Assembly: GCF_026210795.1 (NCBI RefSeq)
Contig: NC_089454.1
Location: 1,488,001 to 1,552,000 of the forward strand
Direction: 5' to 3'
Source of the DNA: Rhizophagus irregularis
Taxonomy: Eukaryota; Glomeromycota; Glomeromycetes; Glomerales; Glomeraceae
Length of the DNA stretch: 64,000 nt
Below the pieces are notes generated by a model that did no database searches, was not told the DNA's origin, and worked only from the letters and a program-made list of their open reading frames with translations. Position numbers and translations under genes: made by a program. Shown piece by piece: positions 13,266 to 40,790 of the stretch (its first letter is position 1; each line of letters starts with the position of its first letter).

Positions 13266-13947
13266 AGTTTTATCTTTTTACGATCACTGGCTGATGAGTT
13301 ATTTAACAAAATGTTTAACATCAGCATTATAATATTTCTTGATTTACGTTTACTGTGCCATTTAACATTTTGCTAAATTTCTCAGTACCTAGTGATTGTA
13401 AAATGACAATTAATAGCTTGTTGGAATCGCCTCATCAAGACTAATCGAATGGTGGTAGCTCGTCTCTCTGTGATCAATATTGACAGAATTACCACTTAAA
13501 ATCCATTAAATATTTTTTAATTTCAGAAATTGATCTAGTGATTGGATTTTGATGTATCTTATACCATTAGATTCGTCTCATCAAGACGAATCGAATGGTA
13601 GTAAGATCGTCTTTCTAGAATCAATATTGGCAGAGTTATTACATAAAAATCATTGATATTTTTTTAATTTCAGAAATTAATCTAGTGATTAGATTTCGAT
13701 GTATTTTATACCATTGGAGCCGTCTCATCAAGACGAATCGAATGGCGGTAAGATTATCTCTCTACGATTAATATTGGCGGAGTTACAATACAATAAAGTT
13801 TTAAGTATAATTTTAGCCAAAATTATATTAATTTTTGGCCAGAATTATGATATACTAATATAAGAAATTTTTTATATAGTCACATCTCTTTATAATCACC
13901 AAATATGAACTGTTCCAAATGTATGACTATAAAGAGAGTTAACTGTA
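13266..13947. mobile_element. Partial Tc1/mariner-type MITE that hosted LINE B
   Basis: This stretch is an inverted, diverged copy of 26210-26850 plus the end at 18150-18205. Its right end reads GAGAGTTAACTG followed by TA (13946-13947), matching the CAGTCAACTC termini of the element at 18150-27134. It contains three copies of the GATTCGTCTC hairpin module (near 13430, 13575 and 13725). LINE B inserted near its middle. The left half of the MITE is not seen beyond base 301. Confidence 0.75.
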
Positions 13948-14831
13948 CAATTTATTTCTATTAAATAAATATTTATTAACAATTCAATACAATAAAAAAT
14001 ATGTTTAAGTATTATTGTTTGCAATAAAACTTTAATTGCAGATCTGCCTAAAATCGGCACTACGTTACTAATAAAATTCAGGTTAAATTTGCCAATTTTG
14101 TGCTAGAACATAAACTTCAAAAAAGGATATTTCATAGATGACATATTGACTATAAAAAAAATCATATGATATACTGAAAAAATACTTGAAAAAAACGAAT
14201 TTGCAAAAAAAAGTTATACATTCATATGCAAAATAATGAGTTTACTATGCACGCGTGTCAGATTTACACCTTAAAATATACAAAATTTCAATATTTCATT
14301 TTACTATATTGCATTATTTACATTAAAAACCTATAATTTTTAGCTTCTAAAGTTGTTTTTAAAAGCTTTTTTGAAATATTTTTATTATTAAAAACAAGTG
14401 AAAGTTGAAGAAAACCAGTTACAGAAATATAATTATAAAATTTTTTGGCAAATATGACTTGTCATAAAATGAAAGAAAATATTGTATTTATGATATTTCT
14501 GTTTGTAAAATGGTTGAAACTTATTTCGCGCGTGAAATGCAAAAAATGCTTTTTTTTATTATCACTATTATCCCTGAATTTTATTAGTAATGCAGTGCCA
14601 ATTTTAGGCGGATCGGCAATTAATTGTTTTGTATAGCTAAATGTCTATTCTCCTCTATTTTTTTAAAATATAATAGCATATATAAAAAAAAACCGGAAAA
14701 TCATTTAAATTACAAAAATATGTATAGTTTACTTAAAATAGATCCAATTTGAATCATTTAAAATGTAAAATAATCTTGAATGTTAAAATTACAGATTGGT
14801 ATTTTTTATAATTATAAATATTTTATAATTA
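13948..14831. other. AT-rich spacer without recognised features
   Basis: I see no conserved coding frame, RNA gene or inverted-repeat boundary. The only open frame (14445-14636, 63 codons) is low-complexity and hydrophobic and is not supported as a gene. Confidence 0.5.
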
Positions 14832-15384
14832 TACAGTAGGTGATCAAAAGTATACGGACACTTTATTTTACGAAATTATGTAGATTACCATATGGTCATA
14901 TGATATGAATAACACATAATTTTGAATTTAGGATTATGATAAACAAATGCACTTAATTTTTCAGACTTTTCTTTATTAGTTAATTTTTTATCAAACATAG
15001 AATCATTTGCATTAAAGTCATCAAAAATATTAAGATTAGGAATCTGGTTTTAAATTTACTGAAAATCTCTGAACAAATATAAAAACAACTATTTACCTAC
15101 TTTCTGGTATACTTTACTATTATTTTAACTTGAAAAAAAATAATAGAGAATGCACAAAAAAAATTTTTTTCAAGAATATTATAAGAAAATTAATCAATAT
15201 AATGCATGGAAAATTAAAGTAATTACTGCCATAAATTAAATTATAAGTGTTTATATTTATATGTAATTCAATAAATGAAGATGAAATAAATATGTTTACT
15301 TTATATTTAGTTTTATTTTATATTAAATGTATGAGATTTTTTTTAATTTGAGAGGTGTTCATATACTTTTAATCGCCTACTGTA
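14832..15384. mobile_element. Tc1/mariner-type MITE
   Basis: Inverted ends of about 30 bp begin CAGTAGGTGATCAAAAGTAT on the left and CAGTAGGCGATTAAAAGTAT on the minus strand at the right. TA lies on both sides (14832-14833 and 15383-15384). The CAGTRGG...AAAAGTAT...GGACAC pattern is typical of Tc1-like termini. It is 553 bp long with no open frame, so it is non-autonomous. Confidence 0.88.
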
Positions 15385-15600
15385 AATATTTTACTACTTT
15401 TTGAAAAATTTAGCCTTAAATATATATTTAAATAATAAAAAATAGGATTAATTTTACATTCACCTCCGGTGAATTTCACCTTGATCTGCAATGCATTAAA
15501 ATTTTAAATTTACCTCGGTGAAATTCACCAGGTGATTTCATATTACACAAATGCGTAGCGCATATTTTGTTTTTTGCTTTCTTGTAGTATTATTTCCAAA

Positions 15601-15735
15601 ATGGCTGGAACTTCTTTAAGGTAAGATTTTTTTATTTTCTTATTACTTCGCTAGTTTAATGTTCTTTTTCTCTTATGCTAACTTGTTAACTTGTTTTTCA
15701 GAAAACAATTTCAAATAACTTCAAGAGGTTTAAGG
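15601..15735 (+). other. Possible captured exon pair
   Basis: ATGGCTGGAACTTC opens a short frame (MAGTSLR). It is followed by GTAAG, an AT-rich stretch ending TTTTTCAG, a second short coding segment (KQFQITSRGLR) and another GTAAG. The splice-site layout looks like a gene fragment captured by the surrounding TIR element. I do not recognise the peptide, and it may be chance. Confidence 0.3.
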
Positions 15736-16016
15736 TAAGACTCACTTTTATTGCTAGTATTTTGCTATTTTATTGTTTTCTTTATTGAAAATAATACTAA
15801 CAGTTTCTTTTATTTTCTATCATCACTTTATTCCCTTTTCATTTTCTATATCCATTTCACTCCCTTTTCATTTATTTGCTATTATTTTTTTCGCTCCTTT
15901 TGTTTTTTATTATTTCATTATTCCCTTCGCCTCCATTTTATTTTTCTATCATTCCCTTTGCTCCCATTTTGTTTTTAATTATCCTTTTCATTTATCATCG
16001 TTTCTTTCGCTCCCAT

Positions 16017-16765
16017 ATTATTTTTCATCACTCCATATCGCTCCATATCATTTTTCATCACTCCATATTGCTGATTGCTCCATATCGTTTTTTATCACTC
16101 CATATCATTCCATATCGTTTTTCATCACGCCATATCGCTCCATATCATTCTATATACTCCATATCATTTTTCATCACTCCATATTGCCCCATATCATTTT
16201 TCATTGCTCCATATTGCTCCATATCATTTTTCATCACTCCATATTGTTCCATATCGTTTTTCATCACCCATATCATTTTTCATCATTCCATATCGCTCCA
16301 TATCGTTTTTTTCATCACTCCATATCGCTCCATATCGTTTTTCATCACGCCATATCTTCCCATATCGTTCCATATTGTTTTTCATCACTCCATATCGCTC
16401 TATATCATCTTTCATCACTCCATATCGCTCCATATCGTTCCATATCATTTTTCATCACGCCATATCACTCCATATCATTCTATATACTCCATATCATTTT
16501 TCATCACTCCATATTGCTCTATATCATTTTTCATCACTCCATATCGCTCCATATCATTCCATATCATTTTTCATCACTCCATATCGTTCCATATCGTTCT
16601 ATATCGCTCCATATTATTCCATATCATTTTTCATCACTCCATATCGCTCCATGTCATCTTTCATCATTCCATATCGCTCCATATCAGTTTTCATCATTTC
16701 ATATCGCTCCATATCATTTTCCATCATCTCCATATCGTTTTTCATCACTCCATTTCGTTTTGCAA
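16017..16765. repeat. Minisatellite of 10/30-bp units (CATATCGCTC, CATATCATTT, TTCATCACTC)
   Basis: The tract is built from decamers, CATATCGCTC, CATATCATTT and TTCATCACTC, combined mostly into 20- to 30-bp units. Because 30 is a multiple of three and the words hold no stop codon on the plus strand, three plus-strand frames stay open for 284-367 codons. These frames (repeating FHHSISLHI-like words) are a by-product of the repeat and not genes. The CT-rich shoulder 15830-16016 is simpler and probably the decayed edge. Confidence 0.9.
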
Positions 16766-17291
16766 CATTCCATTTCATTTTTGTCATTTCATTTCATTTA
16801 CATCATCCCATTTCACTCCCATTTTGTTTTTCATCATCCCTTTACTCCAATTTCATTTTTCACATTGTCTTTTTAATTTCATCATCCACTTCATCCCTTT
16901 TTTACATATTCATTTCTTTTCCGTCATAAAATTATTAATTGTTAACTGAATTATAAAGGATTATATATCTTATGCATTACTATAGGGTTTAAATTAATAA
17001 AAAACTTAGATTAAATGGTTAGTGGATGGGTGTAATAGTTTAATTAAAGTTATGTATATTCTTGTAATTTAAAAAGAAACTTTTCGTTAATAAAACTTTA
17101 TAAGTTCATGCTAAATGGTCAATAGAAAAACTTTTTTACACGTTTTTATTCAAACATAAAAATTTGAAGTTACGTAATTACCGATCTTAGCAAAATTTTA
17201 ATATAATAATAAATATCACGTGATATGGTGAAATTCACCTCCCGGAGTTTTCCGGTGAATTTAACCTCCGGTGAGCGTTAAAATGATCCTA

Positions 17292-17779
17292 AAAAATAAT
17301 ACAAAATTTTAATTATGTTTGTAAACTATTAATAAATTGAATTTAATTAAAAATATTCAAATAGTATCAAAAATAATATAAAGATATAAATAACAAAAAA
17401 TTAGCAATATTTTATTTTAAATTATTTATAGTAAAATTATTTTTCAAATTAGTTTAATTTCAGTATATAAGTAAAAAAAACTTAAAATCATTTAAATTAT
17501 AAAAATATATGTAATTTATTTAAGGATTTTTTTTTTATCACAACGGCAATATATTACTAGTTCTCAAATGTCACGTGTTTAGACTATTATCATGTGATTA
17601 GTTTATCGTTATTATTATTAAAGTTAAGCAATAACTATACAAATTAATTATTAATATAATGTATTCTATTGTCATATTTTCTATTGATACATTCTTTCTA
17701 TTAATACATTTTTACTATTGATATATTCTTTCTATTCATGCATTCTAATTAATTATTCCTGAATAAGTATTACATACAG
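17292..17779. other. AT-rich spacer
   Basis: It holds short AT-rich simple tracts and several TATTCTTTCTATT-like words (17690-17740). No gene or element boundary is seen. Confidence 0.5.
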
Positions 17780-18075
17780 ATGTTAAATTTTTTATTCCTA
17801 GTTATGTACCTTGCAATTTTTTTTGATAGTGGCCAACCTTCCCACATTTTCTTGAACCTTTTAGTACTCAGTGGTCATCCTTTACCACATTTTTTCTTCA
17901 GATTTCGCAATATCAGCGTCAAAGAATCAATATTTTCTTTATCACTTATTTCATCCTTTCTTCCTGAATACAACAATATATGGTTATTCTCATAAGACAA
18001 GATGGTTTCATTATTTAAATTACTGCAATCATCTAAAAAATAAATATAAATGATTAGTAAATTATAAATCCACAT
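17780..18075 (-). pseudogene. Unidentified gene remnant (Lys/Trp-rich 3' exon)
   Basis: The minus strand encodes a stretch ending LRNLKKKCGKG, then an in-frame stop, then PLSTKRFKKMWEGWPLSKK and ITRNKKFNI. The composition suggests the 3' exon of a real but decayed gene; the CGKG...STKRFKK pattern is reminiscent of C-termini of MULE-type transposases, but this is weak. A second small minus-strand frame that could be the 5' end of the same gene lies on the far side of the insertion (27135-27222). Confidence 0.3.
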
Positions 18076-18083
18076 TTCTAATA

Positions 18084-18124
18084 CTAACTAACTAACCTAA
18101 CCTAACTCTAACCCTAACCCTAAT
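18084..18124. repeat. Interstitial telomere-like tract, left part
   Basis: CTAACTAAC grades into CTAACCCTAACCCTAA, the complement of the TTAGGG telomere repeat used by most fungi. The matching part, CCTAACCCTAACCCTAA, is at 27137-27153 on the other side of the MITE/LINE insertion. Confidence 0.75.
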
Positions 18125-18710
18125 CTGAAACCTAATCCGAAATTCAATCTACAGTCAACTCTCTTTATAGTCACACATTTGGGACAGTCCATATTTGGTG
18201 ATTATGAGCAAACAGTCTTATGACTTTATCTTTTATTATTAAATTTAAACGAAAAGTACAATAAACAAATCGAACAATATTACAAATATCAAATATAGAA
18301 AATAAACATAAAAAATAAAAAAAACTAGCTTCACGATTCATATAAGTAAAGAAATCTAAACAAAATAAAATTAAGTAAAGAAAAACTAAACTATTACAGA
18401 AACGCATACCCCATCTTTACCCGAAGGCCAGTGTGAGTCAACTATCCAGCATGTCCTAAGATCCAATCCGTTACCAAAAAGAAATCCTAAGTAGAGGCTG
18501 AACTGTTAAGCGGCGCCAAAAATCCAAATGTGAAATCCAAGATCCCCCACGGATTATAGAAGAGGAAACCCAAGAAACCCAGGAATCCAAGGAAGCTGTC
18601 GCCAAGGAAGGTGTCGAAGAGTCAAGAGAAAGGTTAGAGGAAGGTCGAAGAATAGAAGAAGGCCCAAGAGCTGACGATTTCATTTTTTTTGTAATGCCTT
18701 GAGCTAATTC

Positions 18711-21700
18711 CTAATGATGAAAGAAAATGGAGCGGCACAACCAGATTTGGACATAAAGGTCAAAATGAAAGTCGTGCAAAAGTGTATCTAAGATAGACCA
18801 TATAGCAAATAAAGAAAAATAGTTTCCAAGAAACTCTGTAAGGGATATCGGTATAAGTCCTCGTGCGAGTCGTAGGCAAGAAAGTGAAGGAGGGTCACAA
18901 TCCCAACAATCAAGAGCCATAAATTCAGCAGCAAAAGAGTCCGGTAGAGGCATTAAAGATGACGCGGAAAGGAATTTATCAAGATAATTAGTCCGAAGAG
19001 CCAACAGAAGTGTTTTAAAAGTATTTAAAGGACTAAATTCCGATAAGATATAAGGACAAGTCCACAAGTGGTCTAAAGTCTCAGGAAAAGAATTACATTG
19101 AGGACAAAGCCAACTTGGATTATAAAGATGAGGCTTTCGTCTCTGAAGAGTTGTAAGCGTTGGAAGCATATCTAATAGTAGTTTGATACAGAAACCACAA
19201 AACTCGGAACGGCCATTCCGATGAGAGACAAATTGCTTACTGTTATTGAGACAAAATTTGGTGCAAGCCCAGTCGATATCAGAAATTGAAGAAAAGGAAT
19301 TAAATCTTGGTAATATAGCAAGAGTTAAAAGACTTTTAGCGTCAAAAATATCTCTGATGAATTTCCGGATATTCATATCCACAGGTAAAGAATTAAATCG
19401 TAAAATACAAGGAGCTGACAATTCCAATGATGGACAAGAAGAAAGATGTGAGTCTGTATGAGCAGCTTTAGCTAATGCATCCACATGATTATTCAAAGGG
19501 TCGTCAGCATGAGCAGGAACCTTGATCAAAGAAACATCCAGATTCTTTTGCGACATAATAGTGCGTATGGAGGACCACAAGAGGTGATTGGATTCTTTAA
19601 GCATTCTGGGAATAAAAGGAGCATCCACATACAAAGACCATAAAGAAAGTAATTGGGCACAATCAGTGGCGACAGTAATCTTTGAATTCCGAGGAAGGGA
19701 GTCCAATCCGTGTAATAAAGCAAAAACTTCTGAACGTAGAGCAGAAGGAAAGATGGAAGAAATGATATTATAATGGGATTCCAAAATAAATCCATCAGGA
19801 TCTATAGCAGACCATGCATAAGCCATCGAAGATATTGGATGACTAGAAGGGGGAAGGAAGGAACCATCAATATAAAGTGTAGACACCGAAGAAGGAAGTT
19901 GGATATCAGAAATCCTGGGCACTTGTTCATTTATAGAAGGTAACCGATCCGGAGCAAAAAGATGGAATAGTAAAAGAGATTTGGCATAGCCTAACGAGGC
20001 AGAGAGTGAAACCGAACGAGTGTCCGCATGTATATAAGTACGAAGTTTCGTAGGATAACGGATCAAACTTGATAATGGAACATAAGAGAAACATCTTTCA
20101 GAGGGACATCGTTTAAGTAAAGTCTTAGAGGTAGAGGATCGCGGGAGAGCAGAGGCACAACCTTGACACGCATTAAAATCAGAAAGCAAGTCATCAACCG
20201 AAGACGCAATCCAATGTGAAATAAGAGCTTCATTACGTGGAGCAGGATAGGTAGTAATCACACGGCCAACAAGAAAAGAGTTAGTATTACGATTAAAAGA
20301 AATAGCCCATTGAGGGTTAAACCAATAATTTCGACTAATATCTATAAAGGAAATAGAAGCTACAGTATGAGAACTAGGAATTCTAAATTGTTGTAAAATA
20401 AAAAAGGAAGGCGAATTAGGAATAACAATAAGATTAAACAAATAATTAAACCAAGCAGGCACAGATCCTTTGTTCAATACTCGTTTAAGAAAGCGTAAAT
20501 CTTTCCACGAGAGAAGTCGAGAGCTACACGGCGTAATCAGTTGAGCAAGGAAACGAGTGCTGAAATTTTTCCGAACATTTTTCATGGAAGTAAATAAATC
20601 TTTTGGTAAAATAGACCGGAGTGGAATCGCCGGACGTAGATCTTTCCTCGGAGGTCGGAACAATAAAGACCACGTGATATTTAAACGAGAAGAGAACAAT
20701 AAAGAATTAAATAAAGAATGTGTTCGCAAAGAAAAGGTGTGGGACCATGGTTCCAGATCAATAGTAGAAGGGCAGACATCACAGTCCAAAAAACTTTGGA
20801 GATAAGTAATCATATAATTGGCAAAAAGCTTATATGAAGGGTGAGAAAAAATTCTCTGCCATGAAGCCATATGGGATGATAGAAATCTACCAAACGCTTG
20901 TTGAATAGAAAAGGGCAACAGTGTAAAAAGCGCGGAAAGAGGAGTGACTGAGGCCAAACCAGCCTTCTGACGAATAAGAGAAAGCATTGGAGAAACCATG
21001 CGATTAATGGTAAATTCTGCAAATAATGTGGTTTGTAGGCGAAATTCTAGCCTCGGAAGTAGGACAACGTTATAAAGATAAGCTATATGTTGTGCTAAAA
21101 GTTTTTTAGGACTGAGAAGAGCGGCCATGTCTTTGACCATGGAAACAGATTGGTTGTGAACAAAACGAGAAGAAGCTGAAAGATTAAACCAAACACCTAA
21201 AAAACGGAAAGATGTAGATAAGGCTAACGCCTTTAAAATAAGGGTAGGATTTAAAATTAAAGGAGAAGGAGAAAAATCAAACTCTATAGTTTAAGAAAAT
21301 TGTTTAGAAGAAAGAAGAATATATTTTGCTGAATTTGCTTGAGTATTGTTTAAAGTATAAAATTCAGCAGTAATGGAAAGGCGATCTTCAATTCCTTGTT
21401 TAGATGAAGCAATTAAAGTGGAATCATCCATAAATGTGATATGCGAAACAGGAAGATTATGTTGTTCATATTCAAATGGAGAATAATCCAATAATGCAGA
21501 AGATTTCAAAATAAAAGGATCACAAGCTTCTCGATTAAGTGTGGTAAGCAAAGGATCCAAGTAAATAACCCATAATAATGGAGAAATGATTTCACCCTGG
21601 TCAATACCAATTCTAACTCTATATCCAGAAGTATCACCATGATGGGTAATAATTTTATTATTACGTCTTGTAAAAAGGTTGATGATAAATTTAATCAATA

Positions 21701-24170
21701 AAGACGGTATATGCAGACGGATTAAAGCTAATCTGAGCATGTTTAAATCAATTGAGTCAAAGGCCTTAGAAATGTCCTGAGAAATGATCCATAATTCTTG
21801 GTCATCGCTTTTATCAAAGCGTCGTTGATGAATAATAGCATCGAGCATCTTAATAGGAATGTCAGTGGAACCGCCTGGCAATCCAGCAAAATTACCACCT
21901 TGGAGTACATGGTTGTCAGCTAGGATTTTTGAAAGACGAGTTGTAACGATCTTAACCACACATTTTCGTACAGTTTCCAACAAAGTGATAGGTCGCGTAT
22001 TTTTCAATTGGGCGTCAAATTCATGAGGTTTTGGAATGGGATAGACAAGCGCTTCACGCCAATCGGCAGGAATATCTCCATGAGTGAGGCAAGCATTTGC
22101 TAATACAAGGGACAAATTGAAAGCTTCTCCAGTTAAATGTTTGAGCATCTCATAAGAGATCTTGGAAGGACCGGAGGCTTTATTATTAGGCATAGAATTG
22201 AGAGTGTTCTTCCATTCATCGGCCAGAATAGGAGACATAACCGAGTTATATAAGGACGAATCAATATCTAGAAGAGGAGTATATGCTCGTTGCCATCGTG
22301 GAGAAAATGAATCCGTAGAAGAATACTGGACCAAAGGAGGAGTAACAACCGATTGGAAGTGTTTAATAGCAGCTTGTTTGATATCTGAAGGATCAGTAAG
22401 TAACGTGAGTTTGGAGTCAATAATAACCAAAACTCTATCAAGGACGATAGAACGATGTTCCACTGATAGGGCTGAAGAAATGAAAGAGCCCGGAGACGTA
22501 GAGAAATGTTCATCTCTAAGAGCAGTATAATATTCAATGGAATCTACACGATGCTGATGAAATTGTGTGGAAAGATAAGCTGAGACCAAAGCTTTTTGTG
22601 AACGTAAAAATTTGACAAAAGTAGTAAGTGGTGTTGTACTATAAGAAGGTATAGTATAATCTGTTAAAAGAGACTTAAGGAGGATTAATTGGGTTGGTAA
22701 AGAATTAATCATTTGTGAAGTTTGAGCAGGACGACCAGGCCTAGATGTGGTCAATTTAAACAATAATCTATCCAAGAATTTGTTGATAGCAATAAGCATG
22801 GTAAGTTCAGGAGGATATTTATTGTGATGAGTGTTGGATACATGTTGGAATGGTAGAGAATCAATGGCACCACCAAGAATAGAACGTTTAAGAGCGTGCC
22901 AAAGTTTGTCCAATGAAAGAACTGAAAGTGAAGATACTGAAGGGTGGTGTGTGGTCAAGTATAATTCAAGACGTGAGTTTACTTCATTGGAAAATTTGTC
23001 CCAAGTGTCATCTTTCAAATTTTTGTAAAGAAAGATGGTGCGTTGTTCGCTTTTTTGCTTTAATCGAGCTTTGGATAAAATAGCGAAACATGAGCTAAAA
23101 TCAAAGGCCGTTAAAAGTACACGGTGATCAGTAAATTGATTATCATTCAGCTTAGGACAAGTTTCAACTTGAGAAAAAAGACCAGGAGCAGGGAATCCAG
23201 GGGATGACCAGATATAATCAAGTCTTGAAGAACCATTCTGGTAATAAAAGGTAGGACTAGGACCTGAAGTTGATGAAATATGGGATTGATGATCCGTGAA
23301 ATATCGAGAAGAAAGTGATCGTAAAATTTTTAAATGATGATGAGGAAGATGTGAATGTGAAATTTCATCTGCATTAAAATCACCAAGGATGACTACGTGA
23401 TAGTTATTAGAACGGGCTTTATCAAGCCATAAATTAAGTTGTGCAAAAATAGCATCTCGTTCTTTATAATGAATAGAATGATAAGGAGGAATATAAACAG
23501 AGATAATAGAAATTTTTGTCTGATGAAAAAAAAGATCTAATTTTAAAAGACGACCTTTCCAGGGATCAATCTTCTGAACATGTTTATGTAAAGGATGACG
23601 AAGTAAAAAACCAACACCATCATGTGGTCGTGAATTAGAAGGGGAAGGAGCCCAATAGGACTTAAAATTATATAAGGAATGTTCATTTTGATAAATAAAT
23701 TTAGCACCAGAAGAAGTAAGGCGAGTATCGTTTAAAGATAAAACGCCAAAGGAAGAATGCAAAAAATAATTTAACAAATGCAATTGTCGGACGGGGGAAC
23801 ACAAACCATTAACATTGATTTGTCCAAAGTTAATAAGAGGAGAAGAAAAAGAAGGAGAAGAAAAATTATTAGAACTATTATTATTAAGTATCGCACTATT
23901 AGGGGGGTGAAATCTCTGTAATACACCCGATACAGATTGGTGTTCAATCATTGGAAGGGGAGGGTTTTGAGGGAGAGAAGGAGTCCAATTTTTCCATAAT
24001 CGAACCAAGTTGGGTAGAAAGATTCTTTTGTGTATTGGTGACATTAAAAATTTCCGATTGCAAACGAGAAGTGTCAGCACCGGGGGCAACATTAGTAGGT
24101 CGGGAGATAGGTAAAGGGACGTGTCTTCTTGATAGAACAGAGTTAGGATCCAGAGCTGAGAAGGAAGCAT
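18711..24170 (-). pseudogene. LINE A ORF2: endonuclease-RT-RNase H-zinc knuckle, one premature stop
   Basis: The frame runs about 1,819 codons with one TAA at 21291-21293. Domains in order: endonuclease at about residues 115-345 (INVNGL, VILGDFNADE, FTDHRVL); reverse transcriptase at about 640-960 (RPITLLE, SQDISKAFDSI, GIDQGEIISPLLW, active site FMDD); RNase H at about 1420-1545 (YIDGSF, RSEVFALLHGL, TDCAQLL, VPAHADDPLNNHVDALAK); and near 1655-1680 a knuckle CPQC...H...C. Nicking, target-primed reverse transcription and removal of the RNA strand are the known roles of these domains. The stop falls after the active-site box, between the RT core and the thumb, so the protein would be truncated unless the stop is read through. 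Everything else looks intact, which points to recent activity. Confidence 0.88.
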
Positions 24171-26128
24171 CAGGGGAAACGTCCATAAGAGATGAAGAGG
24201 TATTGGGAGGAAGATTGAATCCAGAATTCATGTCTCGGGTTGGAGCATCATCCCATCCATTATTATAAGAATGAGTATAATTTTCATGATCATCCTGAGG
24301 CGAATGCAATTCAGAGTCGCCAGGGGCGTCATAATTCATCATTGATTCCAGCTCAGATAGTCTATATTCATGAGCCGTAATAGTGTCATTCATCCAAGAG
24401 ACTGTTTCCTCTAGAGTGTGGAGGGTGGTAGCGATCTCTTTGATCTGTGCCTTTAATTCATCAATAACATGATGAGGAAGCGTAGGGGCAGGATTGTTAG
24501 ATGAAGAAGTAGGGTGTATAGAACTGATAGGATGAGGTCTGTGTGGAGGTTGAGCAGAACCAGAAGAATTATCATTGTCCCTGGAATTATTATTATTATT
24601 GTTGGTTCTGTTGTTACTTCGTGAAGTGTTGGGACGAGAAGTGTTATTAATATTGTTGTTGTTGTTGGAACGGAATGAAAAGGAATTATTATTGCGGGAT
24701 CTAGAGTTGGAACGCGATCTTGAACGGGAATTGGAATTGTCACGTGATTGGCGCGAATCCTGATGACCATGTCTAGGTCCAGCATTGAAACGAGAATAAA
24801 GCTTGTTGAGGCGATCGTCCACTTTCCGTGTGGGACGAGGATTACATACAGAGGGAGAACATCCAGGACGCCCACAAACATGGCATAAAGTTTGTGCTTC
24901 ATTGGGAGGGTGCCATGTTAATCCTTTGCCGCGAAAAGCCTCGGTCATTTCTTTGGCAGCTTCAAGAGATTTGAACGAGGAGAAATTCAAATACACATAG
25001 GGTTTAGGCTTGTATGAGCTGATAGACGAAAGGAACGTTAAGAGCGCTTAGCGTTAACTTGAGTAGCAATTTCTATCAGATCAGCTTCTTTAATATTCTT
25101 GGGGATGCCGGCAAGGATAGCAACATGTTCTCTGCGGCTATCGCGTTGGGATTTCGAATAAGATGCCGGGCAGACGCGTAAAGAATTACCAAGGCAAATG
25201 ATCGCCCAAATATCATGAAATTGGTAAAATTGCGTCCATGAGGAAAACTGGATACTGTCCTATTGCAGAATGCTTTACGAGGAGAAGCTTTGCACTTGAT
25301 TACAGTGCCATATCGGGAAAAGGCCTGACGGACTTGAGTCTCGGTAAGGAAAAGTGGGATATCAGTAACAAACAAAGACTTCGCTTCGTCATTGAGTTTG
25401 GCATCTGCAGGGGAATAATGAATAAAGGCTAAATTGAGAAGATCTGCACGTGGTGAACTGACACAATCGGTATAATCGTGCTGATCATTAAAGAAGACAA
25501 GGATCTTTTTGTTATCGCCTGATCCATCGCAGCGTGCACGGGCACCATAAGAGGAATAGCGGGAGAGTGAGCAATCCACTTCGTCACACATGGAGCGATT
25601 GGTGGTGAATTTAGTTGTGAACGCGTCAGGCGCGTCGCGTAAATATGCCGCAGCATAATAACGAGATGGAGCGGATTTTATAGCGGCAGCATTACCATCG
25701 GGGGATGGTCGTCGTTCAGGGACATCGAAGGCAACAGTTTTGCCTTTACCATTGGTGTTAGTGGGAGCATGGATAGAAGCGTCAACAGTTTCAACAGGAG
25801 TAGTAGTATCTTGAGGAGAGGTAATCACTTGGACTTTGTTGACAGGAAGACCAGAAAGAATGGTAGAAGTAAGGGTGGGAGCAGGAGCAGAGGGCGAAGT
25901 TATATCAACATTCATAGCATCATCAGTGACAATACGTGAACGTTTGTTAGGCGCACCAGCGGTAGTCGTAGGAGACAAAGGTCGGTCTCCAGAAGGAGTA
26001 GAAATAATAGGACGCGGTGGCGGCGGAATATCCGGGTTAATAACAGAAGGAGCTGGAGGTGTAGTCATAGTATAAAGCTCAGTAAAGAGGAAAGCAACTG
26101 TGGAAATATTAGTATTTTGAACGAGCAC
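23944..26128 (-). pseudogene. LINE A ORF1: RRM-like RNA-binding protein with Cys-rich knuckle
   Basis: The N-terminal frame (26128-25076) begins with a Pro/Thr-rich segment, then a region with DGNAAAIKS and RYYAAAYLRDAPD, then an RRM-like fold (SLFVTDIPLFLTETQVRQAF, SRYGTVIKCK). A frame change near 25000-25080 leads to 24996-23944. That frame starts with an RRM-like strand (YLNFSSFKSLEAAKEM), then LCHVCGRPGC...C, an Asn/Arg/Ser-rich stretch, and a coiled region. The product would bind the LINE RNA. An RRM in ORF1 is known from several LINE groups. The frame disruption means this copy probably does not make a complete ORF1 protein. The likely true start is the methionine at about 26068 rather than the first one in the frame. 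Confidence 0.75.
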
Positions 26129-26370
26129 TTAGAAATTTTCGAACGAAAATTTCAAAAATAAATTTTTATTAGTATTTTCAAAAATTCAGGAAAGAGTTGC
26201 GATGATCCTCATATTTGGTGATTATAAAGAGATGTGACTATATAAAAAATTTCTTATATTTGTATATCATAATTCCTGCCAAAAATTAATATAATTTTAG
26301 CCAGAATTATACTTAAAACTTTATTGTATCATAACTTCGCCAATATTAATCGTAGAGAGATGATCTTACC

Positions 26371-26900
26371 GCCATTCGATTCGTCTTGATGAGACGGTTC
26401 TAATAGTATAAAATACGTCAAAATCCAATCACTAGATTAATTTCCGAAATTAAAAAAATATTAATGGTTTTTGTGTAATAACTCTGCCAATATTAATATT
26501 AGAGAGATGATCTTACCGCCATTCGATTCGTCTTGATGAGACGGTTCTAATGGTATAAGATACATCGAAATCCAATCACTAGATCAATTTCCGAAATTAA
26601 AAAATATTAAATGGGTTTTAAGTAATAACTCCGTCAATATTGATCACAGAGAGATGAGCTTACCACCATTCGATTCATCTCGATGAGGCGATTCCAACGA
26701 GCTATAAATCGTCTTTTTACAATCACTAGGTACTGAGAAATCTAGCAAAATGTTAAATGGCGCAGTAAACGTAAATCAAGAAATATTATAATGCCGATGT
26801 TCAACATTTTGTTGAATAACTCGTCAGCCAGTGATCGGAAAAGGATAAAACTACCACCATTCGATTCGTCTCAGTGAGACGATTCTAACAAGCTATGATA
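26371..26900. repeat. Four tandem copies of the GATTCGTCTC hairpin module
   Basis: CCATTCGATTCGTCTTGATG, followed by AGACGG, starts units near 26371, 26518, 26665 and 26857. Each unit contains a short inverted repeat (CGTCTT...GAGACG or similar) and ends in a conserved tail reading TCTCTAYGATYAATATT on the opposite strand. Related modules lie at 13430-13770, 29490-30340 and 40470-40780. Confidence 0.85.
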
Positions 26901-27134
26901 CATCTTTGTACGATTATTAGATGCCAAGTTATTTAATATATTCTTTATATAACTGTGATTATAAACGGTTCTTTTTAATATAAGATTTTTGAGGATAGGT
27001 GTGATAGTGACTATAGATAGATTGTGACTATATAGGATAAATTTTAATAATAAAGTGTTTTGAACATTCAACTGGTGTGACTATATAGTAGAATGTGACT
27101 ATAACGGGAGTGACTATAGAGGGAGTTGACTGTA

Positions 27135-27222
27135 ATCCTAACCCTAACCCTAAGCTATATGTACCATATGTAAATTCTGAGTTAAGAGTGTCTTCGCTTG
27201 ACTCTTCTTCCATATTTTCCAT
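27135..27222 (-). other. Short minus-strand frame next to the telomere-like tract
   Basis: From 27222 the minus strand encodes MENMEEESSEDTLNSEFTYG and then runs into the CCCTAA tract, read as Gly-Leu repeats. It could be the first exon of a gene whose remainder lies at 17780-18075, separated by the 9-kb MITE/LINE insertion. No family is recognised. The positions 27137-27153 are the right part of the telomere-like tract. Confidence 0.25.
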
Positions 27223-29255: not shown

Positions 29256-32200
29256 TTATGATATAAATTTTTTTGCTTTTTTAATTAAATTTAATCTATG
29301 TCCCATTTAAAGCTCTGAACAGTTCAGGCTAAACTGGGGAACCGATCTGAAACCGGCTCAAAATTCGGTTTGGTTTGGTTCGGGTATTAGAACCGAAAAC
29401 TGGCGGTTCGATTCGGTTTAATCCGATTTTTTGTAAAAATGCGAAAAATCGAATAGCTGGCCATTTAGTGATCGTACAAAGTCGCACCATATATCATTGG
29501 ATTCGTCTCGACGAGACGCGTCGAATGGAGGTAAGATCATATCTCTAGCATCAATAGATCACACGTTAACCCACGCTAAATGATTTATATATAATTGGAA
29601 TTAGCAAGCTATCTATCAGTGCTAGAGACATGATCTTAGCACCATTTGACGCGTCTCAGTGAGACGAATCCAATGAATATGAATTCGTTCGTATACGACC
29701 ACTGGATGGCGAATAATATCAAGTTTCACATTTTTTTAAAATTTTCGAGCGTTAAAAATTAAAAATTCCGATACATGAATTTATTCGTCATCCAATGGCC
29801 ATACAAATATGAATTAGGACTCATTGGATTCGTTTTGATGAGACGAGTCGAATGGTGGTGAGATCATGTCTCTAGCATCGATAAATAGCTTGCTAATGCC
29901 AATTTTTTATAAATCATTTAGCGTGAATTAACTTATGATCTATTAGTGCTAGAGACATGAACTCACCACCATTCGACTCGTCTCATTAAGACGAATCCAA
30001 TGAGTCTTATTTCATATTTGTATGACTATTGGACGACGAATAAATTCATGTATCGGAATTTTTAATTTTTAACACTTGAAAATTTTAAAAAAATGCGAAA
30101 CTTGATATTATTCGCTATCCAGTGGTCGTACGTGAACGAATTCATATTCATTGGATTCGTCTCACTAAGACGCGTCAAATGGTGCTAAGATCATGTCTCT
30201 AGCACCGATAGATAGCTTGCTAATTCCAATTATTTATAAATCATTTAGCGTGGGTGGTTAACGTGTGATCTATTGATGCTAGAAACATGATCTTACCTCC
30301 ATTCGATGCGTCTCGTCGAGATGAATCCAATGATATATGGCTCAACTTTGTACGATCACTAGATGGCCGGCTATTCGATTTTTCACATTTTTATAAAATC
30401 AGATTAAACCAAACCGAACCGCCAGTTTTTCAGTTCAGTTCTTACGGATTTCGGCTCTAATCCGAACCATTTATAATCTGGACCAAACCGATCCGTTCGG
30501 AGCTTTAGTCCCATTATCTCTATACCAAATTTATTTAATAAAATTTCAGGACTCATCTCTGCAATTTGTGATACAGTAATCTCCTCCTCTTCAAATTTTT
30601 GTAAAAAATTTGTATATTTACCTTCACCATATTGTTTATCAAGTTCTTCCAAAAACTCCTTCATAGATAACTCAGAAAATTTTGTATTATTATTATTATT
30701 ATTATATAAAGTATCAGATTGTAAAGTTGAAATATTTGATGGATGTGATAATGTAGATGGTAATGAATATGATGGTAACTGTTGTGATGGTGGATATGAT
30801 GGCGAATGTGATGGCGGATGTGGTAGTGGATATGGTGGCTATCCATAATAATAGGGATAAGCTTGTAAAATATTATAATGTGAATAACCATTTATAAATT
30901 TATTACTTGCTGATGCTGTTGACGATTGATTTGATGATGAAACCTTTAGAGAGTTTCCCATTCCAAAATTAGGATGTGGTGGCAGAGTTTCATAATCACA
31001 ATGGTTCTTATACTGTAAATAAAAATGTGTTAAAATAAAAAAATAAATAATTGTTTAAATTAATATAGTTACAATTTCATCAGTCCACATAGATAAATGT
31101 AATGTTGTGAGTGGTAAATGTCTATCATCTTTGATGTAACAATATCCTGTTTTATGGATATTACATCCATGCTTTTCTTTGAGTTTCTTATGAATTTCTC
31201 TTTCATAAGATCAATTTCATCCAAATTTGATTCTTTAGGAACAAATGTTTTCTTTTTTTGTTTTGAAGGTGGCGTAATCTCTTCTTCACTTATAGATTTT
31301 TCATCACCATCATCTAATATTAAATGTTTCTAATTGAAAAATATAAATAAATTAATAATAATATTAAACAAATAATTTTTTAAAAAAATATAAATACCTT
31401 TTTTCTTTTTGCCGTTTCTTTTTTTTTAATAACCACGGTAATCAACAAAACTTTATTAGAACTAGTTAACCTATAATATTCTTTTATAAATTCTTCAAAA
31501 TCTTTCTCTTCTTCTAAAATAGTACCAGCTCCTATTCTCTTTTTCAATTTATATGATAATTCATAATCAGTACGAACTAATAAACCAACTGCTTCACAAA
31601 CCCTTTGTAGTATTAGTTCTTCAAATTCATAATAATCAACTGGCTTTTTTTCTAAAGTAATTGCCTTCGCTGGTTTGGTTAAATCAGACGTTTTAATTAC
31701 TAATTTAAAGCGAAAAGATAAATATGAATTAGGCGTGTTATCTACTTTAGAAATTTTATCAGATTGCTTTATAGTTATTTCACTTTTTTCATTTATCAAA
31801 ATCTGATTATTTTCTTGTGTTAAATCTTTATTTTTCTCACTTTTATTATAAGTATTTTGATCTCTAGTTAGCTGACTATTACATTTGGAACATAAAGTAA
31901 ATTTAAATCTTTTTGAAAAATTAGAATCATATCCATATAATTGATTACTAGAATGCAATAAAGCAACTAATATATTGTGACATTTGTTAGGATTATATAC
32001 GCCATTTCTAACAAAACCAAGTTGTACTTTTTTTTTACTATTAGTTGGTTTAATAGTTTTATTACAACTACAATTTTCAATTGCTAAATTAGAGTTACAG
32101 TAAAGGCACTTTTGACATGCGTAACAGGTTCCTATTTGATACTCTCATTCTTTAATACTAAAGGTTTCTGTTTTTTTATAAACTTTATAATCTTTGCAAT

Positions 32201-35949: not shown

Positions 35950-36124
35950 TATAGTCAACTCTCTATAAATGCACTCCTCTTAGGACTAGGTATAAAAGTG
36001 CATTTAAAGAAGATGTGCATTTATAAAATACATATAAATCTATATAATATTAATCTAAAATTAAGGTAATACAAAAATTTTATAACAGATAAGTAAACTA
36101 TATAAAATTTTTTTATAAAGGATG

Positions 36125-36901
36125 TACAGCTCAAGCACCCTAGTTACATCAAATCCTAAATAAAGCGGCCAAATTCCCTTATGTGATTTTCACATGAATA
36201 TCATGTGATCTTTAGCCCGAATTATACCAATAAACGTAATTTTAGCCAGGCAGCCAGCATTAAAATTTAGAAATTTATTGTGCTATATGCAAATTTTATT
36301 GAAAAAATTATTTAAAACACTAAATATTATAAAACAATGTATTTGGTATTATTTTATATCTTTTATAATATTTAACTGCATATTCTGCTTGTTTTTCATC
36401 TAATCCTTTTCAATATACATCCATATACCCATATGATTTTCTTGCAAATGCTTTAATTTGAGATAATGGAACTAATTGGTACAACTAGTTGTAAACCAGT
36501 CCAAAAATAATTACAATTTTTATGAGAATATTTTTACGTTTTTTTTCTGCAAGTTTCTTTATGTATTTTTTTCTTTTTGATACACCAGCCATCAAACTTT
36601 ATTTCAAATTTCAGTGTGAATTTTTATATTAAAAAGCATTGAAATTTAAATTTTATATCAAAAATGTGATGGCCAAATTCAGAATATTTTATATATGAAC
36701 ATATAAATTTTTTGCTAAAATAAAATGCATATAACTTTTTATATATTAATCTAATTAGAAAAACTAAATCATACTTTTGTAGCCCTTGATCTAATTTACT
36801 AAAATATGAAGAGTATTTTAAAAAATATTTAATTTTTCGAACTTTATACTCATTTAAAAATAGGCTTTAAAACTTGATGCGACTAGAGTGCTCGAGCTGT
36901 A
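36125..36901. mobile_element. TA-flanked MITE with CAGCTCAAGCACCCTAGT ends
   Basis: The left end, TA then CAGCTCAAGCACCCTAGT, pairs with the complement of the right end (CAGCTCGAGCACTCTAGT then TA at 36900-36901). Just inside the left end is AAGCGGCCAAATT, also found at the same place in the element at 40869-41308. No significant open frame is present. Confidence 0.8.
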
Positions 36902-37036
36902 TTTACAGAATATATACAGTCAAACCTTTATATAACGATATGTCAGAATATATATGAAATTTTTAGAAAATATCATTATATTAAAGTTATACCAATATTT
37001 ATATATTCTCACATATAGTGGAAAATAAAATTTTAT

Positions 37037-39370
37037 TACTGTAAAAACTTGAATTTAAGCACCTACCGAATTTAAGCACCTTTGTCACTTTTGTCGCAAT
37101 GTCTGTATAAAGTATAAACTAAAATCTAACACCTCTAAATTTAAGCACCCCCAAATATAAATTTTACGGTACAAAATTGCGTAATACGATATATCAAAAT
37201 TTTATTTTTTTTTAATAATTTTTTTAAAAAATTATTTTGGCATAGTAAAACTCTTTTATACACCAACGTTAATTGATAAAATTTTTCGCAAATAATAATA
37301 AAATAACTATATAAGCACGAAATATTTTTAATTTATTTCATCCTTTTTTAAGTTAAAAACATTTATTTCGGCCTTTTTTAAAGACACTTTTTTACAATTC
37401 CCCTTTAAGTTAGTTCAAAAAAAATATTTTTCTTATTGTGGGAATACCTGACAATTTTGACGAACAGACTTAATTAATATTAAGGTAAATTAGAAAGGGA
37501 AAGGGTATAGATTAAGAAATGTAAATAAGAAATGTTCTAAGCTTTAACATTTCTTTTCTTCTTTTTTAAGGATACCAGCAGCACTAACTTCTTGGAACTT
37601 AAATGGACTGAAAGGTAAATTAGATACTTGTTTTTTGTTTAATTTAAGTTTGAATTTTTTTTAATATTTTCTTTTGTATTAAGAACAGCTTTGGATTTTT
37701 CGAATTGAATGTGATGAGATTATGCCGAACTATGACAATAAACTCATTGACAATATCGAAATGAATGTAAGAAAATTTTTTATTTGGTTATTTAATTGCA
37801 GACAATTTCAACATCATCACCTAACTCTTCTAAATTTTCTTTTTCATACTCAGCGATCAATCTATCAATTTCTTCATAGACCATATTATCCTCTCGATCT
37901 ATCCAATAAATTTGAAATAGAACATTTTTTAAATGAATTAAAAATAATTTGATCTGAAATGGCATCCCAAGATCATTTGACCCATCCACATACTTCACTT
38001 ATCCTTGCTTTTTTTAAGTTACTCCCTTCAGTTACACCTGAACCACTTTTACACATCCATTCGTGCCATTCTTTTTGTAAATTATCTTTAAAAAGTTTGT
38101 TTATTGATACGTCTAATGGTTAACATACACTAGTTAATCCTCCAGGAATAACGGCTAATTGAAAATTATGTTGTTTAAATTTAGCTTCTTTAACACTTTC
38201 TTTCAAGTGACTACGAAAAGAATCATACAACATCATAGCAGGTTCTTTTGACAAATTTTCAGACATCCAAATTTTAAATAAAAAATCAATGTAATTCTTC
38301 ATTAAGTCTGAAGTCATCCAACCTTTATCTTGAAATCAACAAATAACACCTTTTAGAATAACTTCACTTTTTGGAAGTTGTTTACCTTTAAAAATACATA
38401 TTGGTGGATATTTTGTTCCATCTATAAATAAATACAATGAACTTATTAATTTGATATATAAAATAATTAAAGTAAATATAAAAAAATAAAAAAATAAAAC
38501 TTCTTACCTGCAGAACAAGTTAGAACTACGGTAAAATGATTTTTATCATTTCCAGTAGTACGAATATGCACTGTTTTATCACCCTTATTATTAACAGTTA
38601 TATTTCCTGCAATGTCAAACCACACAGAAGTTTCATTCATATTAAAAATACTATTCAAATCAAAATTATATAGTGTTCTCAGTCTTATAACTAATATATT
38701 GTCTAAATTCATCTAATTTTTCTTCTAAATTCTCAGGCAATTTTTGAGAAATTTTGGTTCTTCTCCTTAATGACAATCCAAATTATTTCATAAAAGAATT
38801 AATCCAAGAAAGATTCCCTTAGAATTCGTACTCTCCCGCTGGATATAATGCTTGAATTGAAGATTCTTTAAGAATTTTACACATTTGTAATCTTATGGAG
38901 ATATAATTAACAGCAAACCCTTTTTTCCGCTGTTCTATTATCCAACTGTATAAAATCTTTTCTGCTTCAGGATAAAAAGCTTTTCTTCCTGGAGTTCCAG
39001 AACGTTTTTTCTTTTTATTTTCCTCTTCCCATTTAGAACTTTGTCTTATTCATCTTCCTATCATAGGTGCATCTAAATTAAAATGCTTTGCTGCAGCATT
39101 TCTTCCATTTTCTTGGGCATACTTAACTACTATTAATTTTCTTTAAGTGAATATGATGTACGTTGTCTTATACCCACTTTTTTACGCATCATTTCTACTA
39201 GAAATATTGTCAAAACGTGTGAAGAATTTTTGAAAGAAATAGGGGTAAGATGTACGTTGATGTACGTTGATTAAAAAAATTAATAGTAAAATCAAAATTA
39301 AGTACCATTACCAATTTTGTCTATCACATAACTGCAAAAAGGGGATGCTTAAATTCAAGATTTTACGGTA
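37037..39370. mobile_element. Innermost pogo-type DNA transposon
   Basis: The left end, TA then CTGTAAAAACTTGAATTTAA, pairs with the complement of the right end, CCGTAAAATCTTGAATTTAA then TA (39369-39370). AATTTAAGCACC words repeat three times inside the left terminus. The 2.3-kb interior carries a minus-strand pogo/Tigger-type transposase with several stops. Confidence 0.88.
37792..39195 (-). pseudogene. Pogo/Tigger-like DDE_1 transposase, dead
   Basis: From about 39190 the minus strand shows VGIRQRTSYSLK, then YAQENGRNAAAKHFNLDAPM, a CENP-B/pogo-type helix-turn-helix. An in-frame TGA then stands where GRW is usual. A second DNA-binding segment (SGTPGRKAFYPEAEKILYSW) follows. The catalytic core starts at 38712: FNMNETSVWFD, where active relatives have D in place of the second N. 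Then come GGLTSVC followed by TAA and PLDVSINKLFKDNL, where the usual residue is Gln (CAA), and MLYDSFRSHL. The C-terminus is acidic and ends VEIVCN at 37792. The first catalytic Asp is lost and at least four stops are present, so this copy is inactive. Confidence 0.82.
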
Positions 39371-39557
39371 ATATAACAAGTTTTAATAGTATATCGGTAT
39401 ATCAAATATTGGTATATCGAGGTTAGACTGTATATATAAAAACTATGCATTTAGCATTAAGGCCCAAGTTGGGACTAGATAAAAGGTGCATTTATAGAGA
39501 ATATGTATTTATAGAGGATGCATTTATAGAGGGTGCATTTATAGAGAGTTGACTGTA

Positions 39558-40474
39558 GTTATATTAATTAATATTTAAATATTTTATATTTTATATTTTA
39601 TATAATATTTAAAGATTAGTATTATTATAAAAAAATATAATAAATTGTACAAGTATTAAGTAATTTTTATACTGCTAAATAACTTTTAATTAATAAAAAA
39701 AATTGATTTTATTTAACTAAAGTAGTGAAATTGAAATGTAAGTTTTTTTATATAGATAAATCTAATTGTAACAGCCTGTTACACATCTTATTTGTAATAA
39801 CCCCAATTTTATCCAATTAAAATTTAAGATCAGGTGTAATGTAAATAAAAATAAAAGATCAGTCATATAACTAAGACAGAAGAATTTTTTAAAAAATTTC
39901 AAGAAACCACTTATAACTTAAAATTCTGTCTATAAAACTGTCTTAAGTACATTAAGTAAAAGTTTTCCAAATTAAATTTTGCAATAAAAATTTTATTTGT
40001 AAAACACATATTAAATTTATTATTAAAAAAAAATAAAGAAGGATGTTACAAATAAGATATGTAATAGACTGTTATAAATATATTTATTCTTTTCATATAT
40101 ATTATATTTACATTTATAAAAATTAATATATAAATAGTTTCAATTTCTTTAAATAATTTTTAATAAAGGAAGTTAATTTCATTTGACTAAAGTAATGAAA
40201 TTATACTATAAGTTAGTAAATAAAAAAAAAAATTTAAAAATTAATACTATTATAAAAATATAGATTTCTCTATATATATTATATTTACACCTATGAAAAT
40301 TAATATATAAGTAGTTTAGAACTCCAAACAATACTGATACAATTCACATTTGAGAGTTTATATTAAAATTTTTTAAAAGTTGCGTATTACAGAAGTATTT
40401 TTAAAATTTTGTTATCCTATATACCCCTGTTTTTAACACAACCAGTGATTCAATTTTAATAAATTTTATATCAT
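39558..40474. other. AT-rich spacer with short repeats and one MITE
   Basis: Apart from the MITE at 39769-40074 it holds single copies of the ATTTCATTTGACTAAAGTA repeat (near 39700 and 40170) and AT-rich filler. No gene is seen. Confidence 0.5.
39769..40074. mobile_element. TA-flanked MITE (ACAGCCTGTTACACATC ends)
   Basis: Inverted ends are TA then ACAGCCTGTTACACATCTTA and, on the minus strand, TA then ACAGTCTATTACATATCTTA. The element is 306 bp and non-coding. Confidence 0.8.
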
Positions 40475-40790
40475 TAGATTCGTCTCGATTAAGGTTGCTT
40501 GTTTAAACCTCTTCAAAATTCTATGATTAGTTTCGTCAAAATTTTACTATAGATTTATTATAGTTTCGGCAGAGTTTCAGCAGTTTCGGCATTTATAATA
40601 AGTTTCGGCAGTTTCACCTTTCTCCAAAGTTTTGCCAGTTTTTTAATATAACTTTAATATAGTTTCGGCAGAATTTCGCTTTTCGGCAAAACGCCATCTT
40701 GCCAAACCCTGTGCAGGTTTCGGCAAGCAACCCTTAGTCTCGATGAGAGAATCCACAATGATAGTAAAATCGAATTAATAATATCGACAG
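40470..40790. repeat. Hairpin module split by a hAT-like MITE
   Basis: ATTAGATTCGTCTCGAT at 40474-40489 and GTCTCGATGAGAGAATCC at 40737-40754 are the two halves of one GATTCGTCTC module. They are separated by the MITE at 40490-40736 with its duplication GTCTCGAT. The tail after the module (AATAATATCGACAG) matches the tails at 13490 and 26630. Module flanks extend left to about 40440 (CAGTGATTCAATTTTAAT). Confidence 0.75.
40490..40736. mobile_element. hAT-like MITE (TAAGGTTGCTTG termini), second copy
   Basis: The ends TAAGGTTGCTTG and CAAGCAACCCTTA and an interior of TTTCGGCAGTTTC words match the element at 12004-12224. The perfect 8-bp duplication GTCTCGAT lies at 40482-40489 and 40737-40744. 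A still more diverged relative may lie at 42410-42775. Confidence 0.85.

Follow-up and report, generated by a model that had tools for sequence, protein, structure and literature searches.

The 115-bp module described here is a conserved, non-coding sequence that is carried within DNA transposons of Rhizophagus irregularis. We examined it in a stretch of 64,000 nucleotides (NC_089454.1, positions 1,488,001 to 1,552,000; hereafter "the window") and across the genome. We propose, with a probability of about 0.6, that it is a cargo unit that has putatively been passed between transposon families by nesting and kept through recognition of its dyad by a protein. The usual classification of non-autonomous transposons relies on their ends and regards each class as a lineage of its own. 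The module is an internal unit that links about 10 of these lineages, with either of two kinds of target duplication, and roughly two thousand of its sites are well kept. In a published survey, about 50% of the R. irregularis genome is repeats, and two-thirds of its elements lacked a classification until the authors curated them (PMC11075540).

The module is an imperfect dyad in which two inverted arms of ~57 bp flank a 3-bp centre. Its inner dyad reads CGTCTC-N3-GAGACG, and an outer motif, ATCYAGTGAT, lies at a fixed distance from it. Scanning the window with the core pattern GATTCGTCTC-N3-GAGACGAATC-GAATGG (26 fixed bases, at most nine mismatches) recovered 13 complete copies, and a fourteenth is present in split form; this agrees with the at least 14 copies, and with their coordinates, given in a preliminary description of this DNA. 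That description had a 4-nt loop. The actual loop is 3 nt: the 4-nt spacing gave zero matches in the first window scan, and the 3-nt spacing matched. Counting both strands, the window contains 26 core matches, compared with a mean of 1.0 and a maximum of 6 in 60 dinucleotide shuffles. The features of the window are listed below; module copies, each with its 23-nt palindrome, are from the core scan.

13266..13947, +, copy of T (T:283-965), 91.8% to T, cut by a LINE (about 318-13265)
13378..13492, +, module copy 1, 115 bp, extent from conservation limits; palindrome 13424-13446
13524..13638, +, module copy 2; palindrome 13570-13592
13671..13785, +, module copy 3; palindrome 13717-13739
18150..18205, -, T:910-965, LINE-separated end of the second T copy, 100% over 56 bp
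26210..27134, -, copy of T (T:1-925), 99.1% to T
26332..26446, -, module copy 4; palindrome 26378-26400
26479..26593, -, module copy 5; palindrome 26525-26547
26626..26740, -, module copy 6; palindrome 26672-26694
26817..26931, -, module copy 7, T module 1, X-like by the module tree; palindrome 26863-26885
29300-29307 and 30508-30515, target site duplication (TSD) of FB, GTCCCATT
29308..30507, +, FB, a foldback MITE with termini TAAAGCTC...GAGCTTTA and six modules in three inverted pairs
29454..29568, +, module copy 8; palindrome 29500-29522
29602..29716, -, module copy 9; palindrome 29648-29670
29781..29895, +, module copy 10; palindrome 29827-29849
29929..30043, -, module copy 11; palindrome 29975-29997
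30108..30222, +, module copy 12; palindrome 30154-30176
30259..30373, -, module copy 13; palindrome 30305-30327
40318..40869 (ends approximate), +, S element that has a single module and is split by a nested element
40431..40489, +, split module, left part
40482-40489 and 40737-40744, 8-bp TSD of the nested element, GTCTCGAT
40490..40736, +, nested element TAAGGTTGCTTG...CAAGCAACCCTTA, read from the sequence, which splits the S module at its core
40745..40801 (end approximate), +, split module, right part

The copies near 13430-13725 and 26371-26857 belong to T, an element flanked by TA, which is present here as two copies, both interrupted. Complete copies of T have TA at both ends without a longer duplication (4/4), which confirms the TA-flanked carrier reported earlier. 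Thirty-nine other T copies are 97-99% identical, and this near-identity suggests that they are probably recent. The foldback element with an 8-bp duplication is likewise confirmed as FB, with boundaries at 29308-30507 and GTCCCATT as the duplication; its arms, 318 nt long and 93% complementary, make up most of the element. Seven of eight FB copies have an 8-bp TSD, five of them perfect and two with one mismatch. The fourteenth module, split at 40482-40489 / 40737-40744, belongs to a third window family, S. Modules are spaced 147 bp apart in T, U and Z, 148 in FB and 147-148 in X. We do not claim that a 147-bp spacing is constrained, given the gaps in T/U alignments and the spacings of 161, 139 and 184 in V, W and Y, respectively.

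In the genome of R. irregularis DAOM197198, 1943 sites match the palindrome with at most two mismatches over its 20 fixed bases, and the reversed control matches none; exact TCGTCTCNNNGAGACG occurs 619 times forward and 634 times in reverse (control, 0). We sampled 50 loci: 16 exact palindromes (L021-L036) and four further sites (L037-L040) from the genome palindrome search, and 30 core-exact sites (L041-L070) on contigs 1 and 2. Four clusters of the core-exact list, where FB copies had already been placed, were left out. The loci were assigned to families by similarity, with both ends checked in only part of them; L021, L025, L028-L030 and L035 are relatives of U that are partial or have diverged. 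Among these 50 loci, picked for a well-kept core, there was no bare copy of the module and no solitary copy with its own target duplication. Nor was any a SINE with an RNA-derived head, since all were assigned to other element families. The stretches seen contained no satellite-type long tandem arrays outside mobile elements, and held 1-6 modules each, within elements. In the sites examined, it is terminal-repeat elements that carry the module, and the module does not move alone. Spread of the module on its own, as first suggested, is not supported: bare copies are lacking among the sampled loci, and in the sole case with an empty site the module arrived inside a nested foldback with an 8-bp TSD.

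About 10 element families with different termini bear the module, and they include both TA-type and 8-bp-type elements. T, W and Z have TA targets (8/8 ends for Z, the single copy for W). FB, U and the hAT element X have 8-bp duplications, found in 7/8 U copies examined, and S putatively has them as well, with 8-bp repeats that contain one mismatch at L017 and L063. The claim that one module is common to elements whose termini and target duplications differ stands, for about ten families instead of two, and a single ancestral family with one recombinant foldback element does not account for this range of TA-type and 8-bp-type carriers. The first 12-14 bases of T are common to three of eight loci with a DDE_1 transposase (L085, L086 and L087), which have TACAGTCAACTCTC at one or both ends; the agreement with T is limited to those bases. 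We take DDE_1 to be a marker of the pogo branch of the Tc1/mariner superfamily. None of the eight DDE_1 loci, and none of 10 other hAT loci, has a module within the ~1.5 kb fetched on each side. These 10 hAT loci, a non-exhaustive set, lack U and S termini, and the FB-like 20-mers in them are weak, with 4-5 mismatches; none of the loci is a transposase partner with termini matching FB, U or S. Queries with joined ends, meant to find module-free siblings of T and FB, yielded nothing but separate half-matches in the 40 candidates scored for each.

One transfer can be followed in X (L094), a hAT element with an open 651-codon frame matching zf-BED (E 2.1e-7) and Dimer_Tnp_hAT (E 5.3e-21). The 8-bp duplication is present in 5/5 copies, namely one with the transposase frame and four derivatives, one of which has a mismatch. 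Seven X copies, including that at L094, are 96-100% identical from the transposase end through the first module, and internal-deletion derivatives of X retain the module. X contains an insertion, N, which is 729 bp long, has termini YAGAGTTGCYTGTCAAAAC and four modules, and lies between the 8-bp flanks TAAGTGGG and CAAGTGGG, which differ by one base; its inverted repeats (738 aligned positions at 85.6%) identify it as a foldback. In the loci read, N occurred only between X-type ends. The related hATs L098, L099 (79%) and L100 (77%) have no modules and align without gaps across the insertion point (26/30, 25/29 and 29/34 bases, respectively), with scores of 40, 38 and 43; the highest score among 200 shuffles, made on L098, was 35. 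X and L098 differ by more than N, as BLAST blocks end 44 and 74 bases short of it. The comparison shows that X received its four modules as a nested foldback MITE, N, in one event. Since related hATs exist without the module, it is not required for hAT transposition, and, L098-L100 being empty, we rejected the idea that the modules of X belonged to hAT elements from the start. In the same set, modules are present in L102, which is a 94% relative of X; none was found in L101, whose 3ʹ end was not located and which is therefore of little weight. L096, considered as a second hAT with modules, was rejected on reading because its terminus lies inside a module array.

A W element is nested within FB copy L003, and T and U have in common an array block of ~400 bp (71-78% identity, depending on the aligner). 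In a tree of modules, oriented by the AGTGAT motif and twice by hand, T261 clusters with X modules (95/88), albeit on a long branch, and T599 and T746 cluster with two U modules (99/98). The starred branches force at least three changes for T. The tree shows T to be a mosaic, with modules traceable to at least two sources.

Is the module maintained by selection? We compared 11 representatives of ten families (one each, two for S), assuming a star phylogeny and an ungapped alignment. Column variance in the arms, which lie outside the search motif, was 4.69, whereas 2000 simulated runs reached at most 3.47. Of 92 columns, 26 were conserved in at least 10 of the 11 representatives; simulations gave a mean of 12.9 and a maximum of 29 (P 0.001). 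Conservation of the core is biased by its use as the search motif. Conservation ends at about -57 and +57/58, the two ends being mirror images, and the 18 flanking bases on each side contain no conserved column. Such constraint could be mimicked by gene conversion or by ancestry that the families have in common. Among 31 modules, 27 of them distinct, we found no compensatory double change in the 10 core pairs, several of which barely vary, limiting the power of the test, and core pair 9 is unpaired in 20/27. Outside the core, double changes occur at positions 12 (two) and 17 (three), with pairing no greater than in shuffles. Patchy conservation at fixed spacing, together with the lack of compensatory core changes, is more in keeping with recognition of the dyad than with selection for a hairpin, which the pair counts do not support. 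Hence, of the protein-recognised hairpin suggested at first, the recognition is consistent with the pattern of conservation and the hairpin structure is not supported. Because the module is absent from the related hATs and from the other hAT and DDE_1 loci, conservation is the one line of evidence for the recognition step.

We propose that module-bearing MITEs nest repeatedly in other elements. Loss of the donor ends after nesting, and unequal exchange inside arrays, would then pass the module between families. The module may persist because a DNA-binding protein recognises the dyad, either a host protein or a BED-finger hAT-type transposase, by analogy with the subterminal repeats that serve hAT transposases. 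A more far-reaching version, possible but doubtful, is that the dyad is the DNA-transposon counterpart of the conserved domains of SINEs: it would be bound by a protein of the host or of one hAT lineage, and pogo-type and hAT-type elements would have taken it up independently of each other for the benefit it brings to any carrier, such that unrelated mechanisms compete for one cis-module. In T, the module would also be a landing place for retroelements.

An alternative that we consider unlikely, though a serious one, is that the module has no function and hitchhikes, spreading by nesting of MITEs in MITEs and by recombination, its similarity reflecting recent exchange. The nested entry into X, the W element within FB, the block common to T and U, and the absence of modules from L098-L100 and from 18/18 other transposase loci are all consistent with this. 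Patchy, non-uniform conservation at fixed spacing in 11 representatives of ten families counts against it. It is improbable that the module is what remains of a small palindromic transposon, with ends TAACTC...GAGTTA, formerly inserted independently into several families: the mirrored limits of conservation suggest such ends, but 0/50 sampled loci are bare and many copies occur in pairs and arrays. It is very improbable that selection acts on a cruciform or an RNA hairpin, which might, for instance, give rise to small RNAs or be the target of a nuclease. Near-perfect palindromes and foldback arrays of ~700-1200 bp would favour such structures, but the core pairs and positions 12 and 17 behave as described above, and there are zero Rfam matches in the window at gathering thresholds, on which account a known RNA gene there was also rejected. 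Chance likeness or a low-complexity artefact, for which the 29% G+C of the window might be cited, is refuted by the genome counts against the reversed control and by the ~1 match expected from shuffles.

The closest known analogues of the module are SINE highly conserved domains (HCDs) and transposon-carried satellite repeats. HCDs, together with a V domain inside the Tc1/Mariner MITE MER6, resemble the module in being internal conserved domains of ~120 bp that are common to elements of different origin and occur in a TA-type MITE; their function is given as unknown (PMC6887750). Unlike HCDs, which are found mainly in animal SINEs, the module is carried by many DNA-transposon families in one fungal genome, is palindromic and often arrayed, and has one transfer seen with an uninterrupted site. 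The Tetris foldback transposon of Drosophila virilis has internal tandem repeats, TIR-220, that also occur beyond the element (PMC4079207); in contrast to TIR-220, described for Tetris and derived satellite arrays, the module is common to many families with different termini. Monomers of the bivalve satellites BIV160 and Cg170 are dispersed with transposable elements, in Helitrons or beside MITEs, and BIV160 has conserved segments (PMC5139131), but the carriers named are Helitrons, and the text available does not mention a palindromic dyad common to TA- and 8-bp-TSD families. Subterminal repeats of hATs such as Kat1 also lie inside the ends and matter for transposase activity (PMC4763223), but they serve one transposase, whereas the module crosses families and is absent from the relatives of X. 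If the dyad is recognised, it offers a direct handle on a host or transposase factor favouring MITE amplification. If it is not, the module still documents how nesting can hand cargo from one transposon to another, and relatives retain the uninterrupted site.

Retroelements in T call for a further remark. A 5S-rRNA head for the SINE-like repeat, an impression gained by eye, was rejected because Rfam searches of 8 loci gave zero matches at E 0.1. Within T, exact target sites have been reused by a LINE and by an apparent SINE.

The module occurs in the window as 13 complete copies plus a fourteenth that is split, at the places given in the preliminary description, with about one expected in shuffled sequence. 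The 4-nt loop ascribed to it was mistaken: a scan with that spacing gave no matches in the window, and the loop is 3 nt. Throughout the genome searched (146.7 Mb in 32 contigs), 1943 palindrome sites carry two mismatches or fewer, and the reversed control gave none. The module is real, widespread and shared by DNA transposons.

One carrier family, T, is 965 bp long with both TAs counted, has termini TACAGTCAACTCCCTC... and ...GAGTTGACTGTA, and contains four modules in a single orientation, spaced 191, 147 and 147 bp apart. At least 39 other copies match it at 97-99% over ~814 bases (40 scored of 1405 candidates, the query included). The first 12-14 bases of T match the termini of three of the eight loci that have a match to DDE_1, a domain we take to mark pogo-type elements; the module is absent from the fetched stretch of all eight. 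Two further carriers in the window are:

29308-30507, FB: termini TAAAGCTC, six modules of alternating orientation
~40318-40869, S: short element, one module, interrupted by a 247-bp nested element

An 8-bp duplication flanks seven of eight fetched FB copies, including two with a mismatch, and 8-bp repeats with one mismatch flank both S in L017 and an S relative in L063. The 8-bp duplication of the element nested in S, GTCTCGAT, is a piece of the hairpin core. That nested element, which splits the S module (40490-40736), has a related copy ~28 kb away in the window (12014-12225). Also in the window, the minus strand of 7039-8287 has open frames that by eye resemble a BED-finger hAT transposase. 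L034 is an FB element cut down to a single symmetric module that forms a 243-bp palindrome (95%), and a second short FB variant is implied on contig C25 (C25:2652989-2653534).

Does the module spread on its own, as had been suggested? We sampled 50 loci: 16 exact palindromes (L021-L036), 4 further sites (L037-L040) and 30 loci with core-exact sites from contigs 1 and 2 (L041-L070). Not one was a bare copy, which leaves independent spread without support; similarity placed every one of the 50 in an element family (T, FB, S, U, X, Z, V or Y), and 21 of the 30 core-exact loci are T. U is 718 bp long, with an 8-bp duplication in seven of eight examined; family Z has TA at 8/8 ends; Y is a ~1235-bp palindrome at 94%. 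Two more families are W, seen within an FB copy (L003) and adjoining an S copy (L018), and R, seen at L096.

Where its movement can be traced, which is in one case, family X, the module travels as cargo. X is a hAT: its termini are TAAGGATGGTCATCGGTCCT, the duplication ACAAACAC flanks both sides, and its transposase frame is 579 codons long in L093; the L094 frame has 651 codons, with zf-BED and Dimer_Tnp_hAT domains. The four modules of X come after the transposase stop, ahead of the 3' end. No modules were found in the X-related hATs L098 and L099 (79%) and L100 (77%), or in the fetched stretches of 10 other hAT loci. Joined over the insertion point, the X flanks align without gaps to L098, L099 and L100 (26/30, 25/29 and 29/34 bases), scoring 40, 38 and 43 against a maximum of 35 in 200 shuffles with L098 as target. 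At this point lies a 729-bp foldback with termini CAGAGTTGCCTGTC and TAGAGTTGCTTGTC and flanks TAAGTGGG and CAAGTGGG, which we read as a putative inserted MITE, the 8-bp-type foldback N. The composite of X and N multiplied after insertion, since seven X copies at 96-100%, L094 included, share the joint between transposase end and first module. L102, a 94% relative of X, has modules, and internal-deletion derivatives of X retain the module; the four with both ends in view (L104-L107) all have an 8-bp duplication, one with a mismatch.

T is mosaic in its modules. In a tree of 37 modules, T module 1 (T261) falls among X modules (95/88) on a long branch, and T modules 3 and 4 group with two U modules (99/98); the starred branches require at least three changes for T. 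An array block common to T and U, 400 aligned bases, is 78% identical in one alignment and 71% in another.

The module spans -57 to +57 about its 3-bp centre, oriented by the AGTGAT arm. Outside the search core, at least 10 of the 11 representatives, drawn from ten families, agree at 26 of 92 columns, among them AT and AGTGAT within -48 to -39, AATG (+13 to +16) and ATA (+43 to +45); within 18 bases outside either module end there are no conserved columns. Under the star phylogeny and ungapped alignment that the patchiness test assumes, with gene conversion between families possible and the core being the search motif, column variance was 4.69 against a maximum of 3.47 in 2000 uniform-decay simulations, and the 26 conserved columns compare with a simulated mean of 12.9 and maximum of 29 (P 0.001). 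The proposal of a protein-recognised hairpin survives in part: the conservation fits a recognised dyad, but the 10 core pairs in 27 distinct modules show no compensatory changes. From these alignments, the module is more likely a recognised dyad sequence than a selected hairpin, and a recognition role appears plausible.

Within the literature searched, comprising titles and abstract openings with most subscription papers outside its coverage, we found no account of the module, and to that extent it is previously undescribed. In the portion of PMC11075540 covered, on R. irregularis repeats, "MITE" occurs once, as a class defined by length and ends, and "palindrom" and "nested" are absent; the main text of PMC10234402 has neither "MITE" nor "palindrom". 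Judging from the parts of the sources covered, the nearest known systems are the V domain in MER6 (PMC6887750), Tetris (PMC4079207) and BIV160/Cg170 (PMC5139131).

T is itself a target of retroelements. A LINE at 18206-26209 (endonuclease, reverse transcriptase, RNase H) is inserted in the T copy at 18150-27134, flanked by the 16-bp duplication CATATTTGGTGATTAT (T:910-925). Identical LINE/T junctions recur at other loci, in L026 (3') and L010 (5'), which suggests that this non-LTR element is sequence-specific and has a MITE as its target. T has a second exact target, T:283-298, which starts 22 bp off the centre of T module 1. This 16-bp site, with two mismatches to T, also stands on either side (302-317, 13266-13281) of the window's other LINE (~318-13265). 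Of 21 sampled T copies, 8 are broken at T:298 (L041, L045, L049, L050, L051, L052, L054, L059). There T runs into a repeat that looks like a SINE, except in L054, where a LINE end stands between T and that repeat. The far side and the 16-bp duplication are visible in L049 and L052. These insertions look independent because the inserts vary more (87-97% identical) than their T parts (96-100%). A different repeat (GGGTTGGTCACCCTATCTCAGTGGTTAG...), tRNA-like by eye and with no Rfam match, occurs in L042, L067 and L069; its junction with T is near T:428-433 in two of them, and in the third the repeat is reversed and meets T near T:282. The LINE-bearing T copy is bordered on both sides (18100-18149, 27135-27155) by degenerate telomere-like repeats (CCTAACCCTAACCC), an interstitial site.
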